Assembly: GCF_900102375.1 (NCBI RefSeq) | Contig: NZ_FNBO01000001.1 | Span: forward strand, 124,001 to 188,000 | Length of the DNA: 64,000 nucleotides | Source: Halorubrum xinjiangense | GTDB lineage: Archaea; Halobacteriota; Halobacteria; Halobacteriales; Haloferacaceae | Direction: 5' to 3' | Shown: piece after piece, positions 1,371-60,260 of the stretch | How the letters are laid out: every line of letters starts with the position of its first letter | Position numbering within the stretch: the first letter of the stretch is position 1 | The notes under the pieces: generated by a model | Told to the model about the DNA's origin: nothing | Databases searched by the model: none | The model's input: only the letters and a program-made list of their open reading frames with translations | Translations under genes and position numbers: made by a program

Positions 1371-1396
1371 CGAATTTCTCTGCGGTGAATTCTCTG

Positions 1397-1636
1397 CGGT
1401 GGCGCGTGCCTGCGAGGCCGCCTTGCGGCCGAGCAGCACGCGCGAGGGAGTCGGTCGTCCGGAGCGAAGCGGAGGACGACCGACGAGGCTGGGGAGGTGT
1501 GAGGTGCCGTGCGGTTGTGGTCGGGCGGGACTCGAAGGGGCAGCCGCGAGGCGGGCGCAGGCGACGTAAGCACTGGAGGGAGCGAGCACCGCGAGCGACC
1601 GAAGCGCGCAGCGAGCGTGCGCCCGCCTCGCGGCTG
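1397..1636 (+). ncRNA. Candidate structured RNA, repeat family copy A
   Basis: Three hairpins can be drawn. Hairpin I pairs 1402-1409 with 1436-1443 and contains a 6-bp inner stem (1416-1421 with 1425-1430). Hairpin II pairs 1450-1460 with 1474-1484 around a loop containing GCGAAGCG. Hairpin III pairs 1541-1559 with 1618-1636, 19 of 19 bases. Two single-stranded boxes, GGCTGGGGAGGYGTGAGG and GGGACTCRAAGGGGCAG, lie between hairpins II and III and recur in other copies. Unlike copies B and C it has no TATA box directly upstream; instead there is a short direct repeat (GAATTTCTCTGCGG / GAATTCTCTGCGG) from 1374. No conserved reading frame is shared with the other copies. Transcription is inferred, not shown. 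Confidence 0.6.
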
Positions 1637-1762
1637 GGGCTTCGGTGGTGGTCGTGTCGATCGGCAGTTTATAAACAATATCATCGTACAGCCGAGCGGC
1701 TGGGGCTTCGGTGGTGGTCGTGTCCCTCAGCGATTTATAAACACAGTCGTCGTACGGCGAAT
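1630..1762 (+). repeat. Two 66-bp tandem modules with TATA-like boxes (3' part of copy A)
   Basis: Two modules start with GCGGCTGGGGCTTCGGTGG, at about 1630 and 1696. Each ends in an AT-rich stretch containing TTTATAAA. They are the counterpart of the 57-bp modules in copies B, C and E but have a 66-bp period. The array ends against the stop codon of the convergent presenilin gene at 1767, so any transcript running out of the element would be antisense to that gene. Confidence 0.75.
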
Positions 1763-37340: not shown

Positions 37341-37348
37341 TTTATAAA
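37341..37348 (+). promoter_or_regulatory. TATA box of repeat copy B
   Basis: TTTATAAA lies 19 bp before the conserved GCGGTGGCGCG start of copy B. The expected start point, about 25 bp downstream of the box, falls at the base of hairpin I. Copy C has the same box at the same distance. Confidence 0.6.
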
Positions 37349-37359
37349 TAAACGGCAGT

Positions 37360-37600
37360 GCGGTGGCGCGTGCCTCCGAGCGCCCAACGGGCGCGAGGAG
37401 CACGCGCGAGGGACGCGGCGACCGAAGCGAAGCGGAGGGAGCCGCGAGGCTGGGGAGGCGTGAGGTGCGGTTGCGGTCGGGTGGGACTCAAAGGGGCAGC
37501 CGCAAGGCGGGCGCAGGCGATGTAAGCACCGCAACGAGGGAGCGAACGCAGTGAGTGACCGAGTGAGGAGCGCAGCGAGCGTGCGCCCGCCTTGCGGCTG
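37360..37600 (+). ncRNA. Candidate structured RNA, repeat family copy B
   Basis: Hairpin I pairs 37366-37373 with 37400-37407, with an inner stem GCGCCC-AAC-GGGCGC (37380-37394) that differs in sequence but not in pairing from copy A. Hairpin II is reduced to CGCGGC/GCCGCG (37414-37419 with 37441-37446) around a loop that keeps GCGAAGCG. Hairpin III pairs 37497-37515 with 37582-37600 in all 19 positions; one A-U pair replaces the G-C pair of copy A. Both conserved boxes are present. The element is preceded by its own TATA box and has no conserved reading frame. Confidence 0.65.
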
Positions 37601-37710
37601 GGGCTTTGGAGGTGTTCGCGATGGATCCGTTATCAGTCATTTATAAGCGAGTGGCTGAGTCTCTGTGGGTGTTCACTGTCGATCCATACTCACCATTTAT
37701 AAACGATCGA
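37594..37710 (+). repeat. Two 57-bp tandem modules with TATA-like boxes (3' part of copy B)
   Basis: Modules start at about 37596 and 37653, with a third truncated start near 37709. Each begins with a GGCTGGGG-like word and ends with ATTTATAAGCGA or ATTTATAAACGA. The first also contains GGAGGTG, resembling a ribosome-binding site, 6 bp before an in-frame ATG that could extend the Get3-like gene. I regard that extension as unlikely because it consists of the repeat itself. Confidence 0.75.
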
Positions 37711-42136: not shown

Positions 42137-42195
42137 GTGGCGTGGGGTCGACCAGAGCGCGGACGAAGCGGCCGCGACGCCGGGGTCGCTGTCGC

Positions 42196-42347
42196 TTACT
42201 TATAAACGGCTGCTGGCGAGGCGAGGGCGAACGCCGTTGAATCCCAACCGTTCGCTTATAAACACCTGATAACAGATCGGCGGAGAACACCGCCAAAGCC
42301 CCAGCCGAGAGGACGCCGGTGGCGGCCGCTCGGAGGCGCGCCACCGC
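42196..42347 (-). repeat. Repeat family copy E, internal deletion derivative
   Basis: On the minus strand the sequence starts with the conserved GCGGTGGCGCG (42347-42337) and CCTCCGAGCGGCCGCC of hairpin I. It then jumps directly to CGGCTGGGGCTTTGG of the tandem modules. Hairpins II and III and the conserved boxes are missing. Two modules follow, with starts at about 42306 and 42249 (57-bp spacing), each ending in TTTATAAG. A TATA-like GTATAAAT lies upstream at 42371-42378. The element sits between the LysE gene and egsA and points away from egsA. Confidence 0.75.
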
Positions 42348-42487
42348 GTCGGACGCGGTGCGCGTTGTCTATTTATACGTAGCTGCCGCGATCCGGCTCG
42401 GTCCGCGGCGGCGGGTTCCGCTTCGCGGGCTCGGCGATCCGTTCGAAAATCCGCATCTTCTAGACCCTCCGGTCGCGTATCTGAGCC

Positions 42488-58319: not shown

Positions 58320-58370
58320 GGGTCGAGATACGCGAGCGACGACGAAAAGCCACCGGGACGACGACCTTTG

Positions 58371-58378
58371 TTTATAAA
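58371..58378 (+). promoter_or_regulatory. TATA box of repeat copy C
   Basis: TTTATAAA precedes the conserved GCGGTGGCGCG of copy C by 18 bp, as in copy B. The predicted start point falls at hairpin I. Confidence 0.6.
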
Positions 58379-58388
58379 CGAACGCTGT

Positions 58389-58685
58389 GCGGTGGCGCGT
58401 GCCTGCGAGCGGCCGCCCCCGGCGGCCGCGAGGCAGCACGCGCGAGGTCGCCGGCGCTACGCGCCGGCTGCCAGAGGGACCTTCGGTCCCTCGCTGGAGT
58501 CGGCGGTCCGGAGCGAAGCGAAGGACCGCCGACGAGGCTGGGGAGGCGTGAGGCGCTGTGCGGTCGCGGTCGGGTGGGACTCAAAGGGGCAGTCGCGAGG
58601 GCGGCGCAGGCGACGCAAGCACTGGAGGGAGTGAGCGAAGCGAACGACCGAAGCGCGCAGCGAGCGTGCGCCGCCCTCGCGACTG
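58389..58685 (+). ncRNA. Candidate structured RNA, repeat family copy C
   Basis: Hairpin I carries an inner stem CGGCCGCC-CCCG-GCGGCCG and the outer GCGCGTGC/GCACGCGC. Two extra hairpins follow that are absent from A and B: GCCGGCGC-TAC-GCGCCGGC and AGGGACC-TTC-GGTCCCT. Hairpin II pairs 58499-58509 with 58523-58533, all 11 bases, with two compensatory changes against copy A. Hairpin III pairs 58590-58608 with 58667-58685, 19 of 19, with three compensatory changes against copy A. Both conserved boxes are present. A TATA box lies upstream. Confidence 0.68.
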
Positions 58686-58917
58686 GGGCTTTGGAAGTGT
58701 TCTCCGGCGTCCTGCTGCCAATCGTTTATAAATGATCGACTGGGGCTTTGGAGGTGTTCGCTACCGATCCACAGTCAGTCATTTATAAACGAGCGATTGG
58801 GGCTTTCGAAGTGTTCTCCGGCGTCCCGCTGCCAATCATTTATAAGCGATCGACTGGGGCTTTGGAGGTGGTCTCCGTCGATCCGCAATCAACGATTTAT
58901 ACTCGATCGGATCGAGA
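58681..58917 (+). repeat. Four 57-bp tandem modules with TATA-like boxes (3' part of copy C)
   Basis: Modules start at 58681, 58738, 58795 and 58852, exactly 57 bp apart. Each starts GAYTGGGGCTTTSGARGTG and ends ATTTATAARCGA or a variant. Modules 1 and 3 share the spacer TCTCCGGCGTCC, while 2 and 4 share a GATCC word, so the array looks like a duplicated pair. The period is a multiple of three and leaves a frame open, but the frame differs from that in copies A and E, which argues against a coding role. Confidence 0.8.
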
Positions 58918-60062: not shown

Positions 60063-60077
60063 GGATGCTGACACCTT

Positions 60078-60195
60078 GGCGCGCCTTCGAGCGGCCGCCA
60101 TCGGCGGCCGCGAGAAGCCCGCGAGGGAGGCGGCGGCTCGGCGCGGCTCCGCCCGCGCCGGGCCGCCCGCCGAGGCTGGGGAGGCGTGAGGTGCG
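60078..60195 (+). repeat. Repeat family fragment D (5' half only)
   Basis: The fragment contains hairpin I with the inner stem CGGCCGCC-ATC-GGCGGCCG (60092-60110). Next comes a long stem in the place of hairpin II, capped by GGCGCGG/CCGCGCC (60140-60146 with 60153-60159), and then the conserved box GGCTGGGGAGGCGTGAGG. It stops before hairpin III. No tandem module and no TATA box are present. Confidence 0.7.
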
Positions 60196-60200
60196 TGGCC

Positions 60201-60260
60201 GTGCGGAGCGGTACCGGACAGTGCGGAGCGGTACCGGACGGTGCGGAGCGGTGCCGACGA
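60201..60260. repeat. Three 20-bp tandem repeats next to fragment D
   Basis: GTGCGGAGCGGTACCGGACA/G occurs at 60201-60220 and 60221-60240, and a diverged unit follows at 60241-60260. The array starts exactly where fragment D loses similarity to the full copies, in the spacer downstream of malG. Confidence 0.8.

Follow-up and report, generated by a model that had tools for sequence, protein, structure and literature searches.

An internally deleted copy of a high-copy, putatively RNA-forming repeat in the lysE–egsA spacer of Halorubrum xinjiangense

Relation to described haloarchaeal repeats

Core-deleted ('terminal-only') PATEs and IS605-type elements have been described in Haloquadratum walsbyi, and the core deletions there run between direct repeats of 19–22 bp, near-terminal palindromes (PMC3119063). 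The same source describes MITEs and small mobile repeats (SMRs) of haloarchaea, which have terminal inverted repeats (PMC3119063). A PATE of Halorubrum lacusprofundi was reported to be strongly expressed in virus infection, and no link between it and the repeat analysed here was seen (PMC10544981).

The present analysis is based on a window of 64,000 nucleotides from the genome of Halorubrum xinjiangense, in which copies A to E of an intergenic repeat were compared. For copy E, which lies in the spacer between lysE and egsA, the core-deleted PATEs of Haloquadratum are the closest precedent (PMC3119063). Like those PATEs, the repeat is a high-copy, dispersed haloarchaeal element too short to encode a transposase (copies A to C measure about 350–540 bp, and no terminal inverted repeats were seen by eye). 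A further likeness is that a PATE complete in one strain can be core-deleted at the corresponding position of another (PMC3119063); at the site of copy E, a full element is present in a related genome (G166, locus L177). However, the junction of copy E has only about 2 common bases, compared with the 19–22 bp direct repeats of the H. walsbyi deletions (PMC3119063). Moreover, PATE ends match IS605-type elements (PMC3119063), whereas the present repeat is not linked to TnpB beyond the chance estimate: of the 25 TnpB loci of the genome, three lie within about 3.2 kb of a copy, where our own estimate from box density predicts about 3.7, and the other 22 have none of the repeat's boxes. Judged by this linkage, near-terminal palindromes related to IS605-type (TnpB) elements were not found, and a PATE/IS605 origin was rejected because the linkage is at the estimated chance level.

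The repeat shares with MITEs and SMRs that it is short, mostly non-coding and dispersed (PMC3119063). It differs from them in having a direct TTTATAA-type motif at both ends; inspection of 59 5' ends and 25 last modules revealed no inverted ends. The covarying hairpins on one strand and the conserved boxes resemble Rfam structured RNA families. Neither the window nor the repeats in L177, L129, L175 and L068 reached the gathering score of any Rfam family; elsewhere in these four loci only a tRNA and a leuA element matched, and copy C gave no match up to E 1. A search of an open-access library by sequence string and by topic found no description of the repeat.

Architecture, distribution and predicted fold of the parent repeat

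Three full elements are present on the plus strand of the window: copy A (1396..1745) with two modules, copy B (37341..37707) with its first module at 37596 and a second, decayed one, and copy C (58370..58905) with four tandem 57-bp modules. Copy D, also on the plus strand (60075..60210, both ends approximate), is a 5' piece that comprises hairpin I, hairpin II and box 1. It is truncated on the 3' side soon after box 1 and has neither an exact box 2 nor a module behind it. Box 1 usually stands 35–50 nt upstream of box 2, and the first module usually 97–114 nt downstream. The usual module period is 57, with one to five modules per copy (71 copies). A TATA-like box was found within 45 nt upstream of the core in at least 40 of 59 scored copies of the genome, a low count because at least four copies were misanchored. 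A second TATA-like motif, often TTTAAATA, was observed about 30–34 bp ahead of the 5' TATA box (14 motif matches at −30 to −34 in 39 aligned copies), and GCGACGAT often precedes the 5' TATA box in the copies of this genome.

In the source genome (G000; 3.26 Mb in 25 contigs), box 2 (GGGACTNRAAGGGGC) has 126 exact matches (control 0) and 159 matches with at most one mismatch (control 3). Ten other genus genomes of the phylum sample contain 4 to 151 exact matches. A box 2 match was found in 53 of the 392 phylum genomes, several distant ones having a single match that is possibly due to chance. In other haloarchaea, box 2 often occurs in divergent pairs about 41–47 bp apart (e.g., L174 of G288 and L175 of G387). 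At positions 1300–1900 of L175, each box 2 is accompanied by a separate hairpin, and inverted repeats (AACAGCAAGAAAGCCCC / GGGGCTTTCTTGCTGTT) can be read at the outer ends.

The occupancy of the sites in five compared genomes was five for C, four for B, three for A and two for E; copy A is absent from G225 and copy B from G411. At the A site of G408, a second full copy, in inverted orientation, appears to have inserted into copy A between its first and second modules. Both the box 2 counts and the site occupancy are variable, which indicates that the repeat family does spread or get lost. Matches in plasmid records were restricted to 5 of 72,556 and covered 25–67% of the query; the phage collection gave no match to the repeat, and viral contigs gave 15 stretches with an exact 15-mer. 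As the plasmid matches are few and partial and the phage collection has none, carriage by plasmids or viruses was rejected. The family appears to be mainly chromosomal because the plasmid-record matches are few and partial, although the contigs of this genome are unassigned.

All 68 scored copies are intergenic, and the directions of their neighbour genes are even (19/19/16/14). The scored copies are those with box 1 and a module among 76 collected matches, which were the best BLAST matches, E-like matches and first pattern matches and not a random sample; neighbour genes were called by a home-made codon score, with open frames inside the element left out. A role as terminator or UTR was rejected on account of these even directions.

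The stem of hairpin III was evaluated on 60 aligned copies against 500 shuffles. Including the box 2–module 1 pairing, 93.5% of its cells were standard pairs versus 83.1% in the shuffles, and 32–52% when slid by one to three columns. Changes on both sides were found in 125 cells versus 38 and in 15 pairs versus 7.6, and the covariation score was 0.250 versus 0.085. For paired cells, both-side changes and covariation score, none of the 500 shuffles was as high, and the 31 further pair types (25.8 in shuffles) were reached by two of the 500, although these frequencies are not probabilities, as the copies are related paralogs and the structure was drawn from their consensus. The RNAalifold structure contains 400 G-U cells versus 16 A-C cells, and some of the G-U pairs are constant.

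The pair between box 2 and module 1 was A-T in 66 and G-C in five of 71 copies, with no exception: CTCGAAGG in box 2 occurs with CTTCGG in module 1 (5/5) and CTCAAAGG with CTTTGG (66/66). Later modules follow box 2 loosely, with C in 24 of 87 beside the A form and in two of two beside the G form. At the few loci compared from other genera (L129, L172–L175), a C of the Halorubrum box 2 is replaced by G, and the G opposite it in the Halorubrum module is replaced by C. Because compensating changes occur both within the Halorubrum copies and at the loci of other genera, it is predicted that box 2 and module 1 pair on either side of a GGG/GGG internal loop and so form the base of hairpin III. A small hairpin within the module (GGNGGU-GUUC-RCCNCC) was also considered and was rejected, as its middle pair showed no covariation.

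Copy E and the lysE–egsA spacer across the genus

Copy E is located on the minus strand at 42193..42377, between the end of lysE (42136) and the start of egsA (42488). Its similarity to the repeat family is beyond chance: it matches other copies in its own genome down to 1.5e-23, and the hairpin I half alone matches paralogs in the set of collected loci down to 1.2e-8. Read on the minus strand, it begins with the TATA-like box TATAAATAG (42369..42377), followed by hairpin I, of which the 5' arm and the loop side are present (42314..42347) and the 3' arm is absent. The deletion junction, ACCGGCG joined to TCCTCTCGG, lies within 42305..42320. Module 1 (42248..42306) has TTTATAA near its end (start 42262), and the degraded module 2 (42193..42249) retains TTTATAA (start 42206).

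The first-pass annotation had described this copy as a clean internal deletion of the repeat, and the deletion was confirmed at that place: the distance from GCGGTGGCG to the first module is 41 nt, compared with 236 nt in copies A and B, 292 nt in copy C and 388 nt in the G166 ortholog. In 49 copies of the same genome, this distance has a median of 240 nt and a range of 162–351 nt. The length lost, measured against copies A and B, is about 195 nt and comprises the 3' arm of hairpin I, hairpin II, box 1, box 2 and almost the entire hairpin III. The annotation's view that the 5' start of hairpin I is joined directly to the modules, with hairpins II and III and both boxes removed, thus holds in outline, but the cut lies in the loop of hairpin I, whose 3' arm is lost as well, and this loop is fused to the 3' base of hairpin III, of which about 8 nt of the 3' arm are left ahead of module 1. 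The two modules and the upstream TATA-like box that it listed as remaining are indeed kept, although module 2 is strongly degraded. The bases in common at the junction are at most about 2, as judged from paralogs. Since box 2 is lost, copy E cannot form the box 2–module 1 stem. Its TATA-like box lies 30 nt from GCGGTGGCG; the commonest spacing elsewhere is 13–15 nt (25 of the 40 copies with such a box).

The search for egsA covered 52 genus genomes, and the lysE–egsA spacer was read in 50 of them, all but G406 and G420 (30 search loci including the window and 20 fetched ones). The comparison of this spacer in related strains, which the annotation had proposed as a check, yielded short spacers of 47–155 bp (69 bp in L195) with neither box 2 nor module in 45 genomes. 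For two of the 50 (G412 and G404), the sequence fetched upstream of egsA showed no lysE. The element is present in three: the window (spacer of 351 bp, deleted copy E), G166 (738 bp, a full copy with three modules on the same strand as copy E, locus L177) and G397 (377 bp). The G397 copy carries another deletion: it lacks hairpin III and has decayed modules, but retains hairpins I and II, box 1 and, with one change, box 2. The closest named relatives by egsA belong to Halorubrum. The 38 named loci L091–L128, which probably represent partly the same genomes, have no copy at the site either. A deleted form shared by all relatives as the ancestral state, which the annotation had named as the outcome that would speak against its reading, was not found among the 50 genomes read.

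Three TATA-like boxes are left in copy E though module 2 is otherwise degraded, which would suit a copy kept as a working tandem TATA array, e.g., an antisense or decoy promoter between lysE and egsA. We consider this improbable, as the 45 empty spacers argue against a general need at the site, and full copies show no orientation bias towards the direction of neighbouring genes.

The genome with the egsA most similar to that of the window is G166. The alignment between the two extends without interruption from the modules to lysE (78%); towards egsA, the identity is 92% up to about 40 nt from the TATA box of copy E; the roughly 40 bp adjoining the element on that side do not align. The hairpin I of the G166 copy is of a different subtype. 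In L177, hairpin III is larger because it contains several additional stem-loops and a series of near-identical GACCGAGGAGCACAGCGAGC units. The egsA promoters of the genus (e.g., window 42440-42487) are of two unrelated types, CGCATCTTCTAGAC and CATGGACAACGGCTTT. All three occupied sites have the first type, CGCATCTTCTAGAC; G424 has the same type, yet its spacer is empty. The egsA gene tree is poorly resolved, and G397 falls in a different group from the window. No target duplication was seen at the site of copy E, although the divergence of the flanks could have obscured one. Insertion into pre-existing TATA boxes was dropped as an idea because no TTTATAA is present at the two empty sites inspected for such boxes, G424 at E and G225 at A.

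The annotation had compared copy E with the deletion derivatives of non-autonomous mobile elements. Such a derivative, inserted already shortened, would fit the wide span of box 2 counts in the ten other genus genomes and the presence of sites A, B and E in some genomes and their absence from others. However, the 25-base junction of copy E is exact in one of 52 genus genomes, namely in copy E itself; with three mismatches there are four further matches versus two control matches. In the module survey of the genome, based on the first 100 of 198 exact module matches, which form 62 clusters of exact-matching modules, four clusters had no exact boxes upstream; three of these had slightly altered boxes, and only E had none. 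Together with the full copy at the same site in G166, these results did not sustain the mobile-derivative claim, and we regard this origin as very unlikely. The related statement that the ends can persist without the core holds for the locus of copy E and does not extend to a joint rule for both ends, as copy D has the 5' piece without modules.

Origin of copy E and significance of the repeat family

The explanation that we hold with good confidence as a whole is that the parent is an intergenic repeat whose sense strand would fold as RNA, and that copy E is in decay, having arisen by a locus-specific deletion from a full-length element that stood earlier in the lysE–egsA spacer. Because a full ortholog stands in G166, the genome with the closest egsA, copy E may most simply be read as a secondary deletion private to one site. 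A point against it is the small number of common bases at the junction (about 2, judged from paralogs), unlike the 19–22 bp repeats in Haloquadratum. The reverse order, in which copy E would be an ancestral short form and full copies would have grown from such forms, found no supporting evidence and seems scarcely credible: full architecture is the rule in the copies examined and at cross-species sites (C in five of five compared genomes), and copy E is degraded and unique.

We infer the following order of events for the deletion reading. A full element would have been present in the spacer before the lineages of the window and G166 split, or would have reached both with a common egsA promoter segment. 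A deletion of about 195 nt (versus A and B) would then have brought the hairpin I loop up against the 3' base of hairpin III, presumably through replication slippage or end-joining at DNA hairpins, leaving two TATA-bearing modules and a promoter-like box. The parent element would be transcribed, and copy E would have lost its function. The parent of copy E was not identical to the G166 copy, since about 40 bp of flank are unaligned and the hairpin I subtype differs.

The loss of hairpin III is also seen in other copies of the genome: L034 and L294, from which all or part of box 2 is missing as well, and L047 and L048. The 3' breakpoints of these four copies and of L187 (G397) lie near that of copy E, at the base of the 3' arm of hairpin III. 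As the breakpoints of several copies cluster there, the long stem of hairpin III is a putative deletion hotspot.

Copy E could instead be a chimera, its 5' end and module array having been combined by recombination or gene conversion between two copies. The different hairpin I subtype of the G166 ortholog is in line with this, as is the observation that same-site cores from different genomes have a mean similarity of 0.76 (32 pairs), slightly above the 0.73 (25 pairs) for different copies of one genome and the 0.72 (133 pairs) for non-orthologous copies of different genomes, while the syntenic blocks around them are mostly about 80–92% identical. Such low likeness of same-site cores within these blocks suits exchange among copies or fast evolution of the stem. 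However, both outer flanks of copy E are orthologous, which makes a rearrangement unnecessary, and similar losses of hairpin III occur in other copies, so that a chimera appears unlikely. With the unaligned flank and the differing hairpin I subtype, gene conversion between copies is possible. Recombination of the whole lysE–egsA spacer is also possible and the order of states at the site is not fixed, because the egsA tree is poor, G397 is grouped elsewhere and the spacer of G424 is empty.

Copy E itself is an ordinary deletion remnant, and the main interest lies in the parent repeat family. One site in related genomes presents an empty, a full and two different deleted forms, which shows change at a single site. 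Copy E also led to a strong, testable statement, namely that module 1 is the pairing partner of box 2 on the RNA strand, whereas later modules follow box 2 loosely. The parent looks like an undescribed, high-copy, structured RNA-like element. More tentatively, it could represent an undescribed class of haloarchaeal RNA with well over 100 copies per genome in some species. Its box 2 arm would pair with module 1 in an array of one to five modules, spaced 57 bp apart in most cases, and each module would repeat the 3' arm and generally bring a TATA box with it. If this is true, a knock-out of the 5' arm (box 2) would have arisen naturally at one site in copy E. The family may be a selfish or a house-keeping RNA gene family in which promoter and 3' arm have been multiplied together. 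An RNA-like repeat with more than 100 copies in a 3.3 Mb archaeal genome and no Rfam entry would merit naming.
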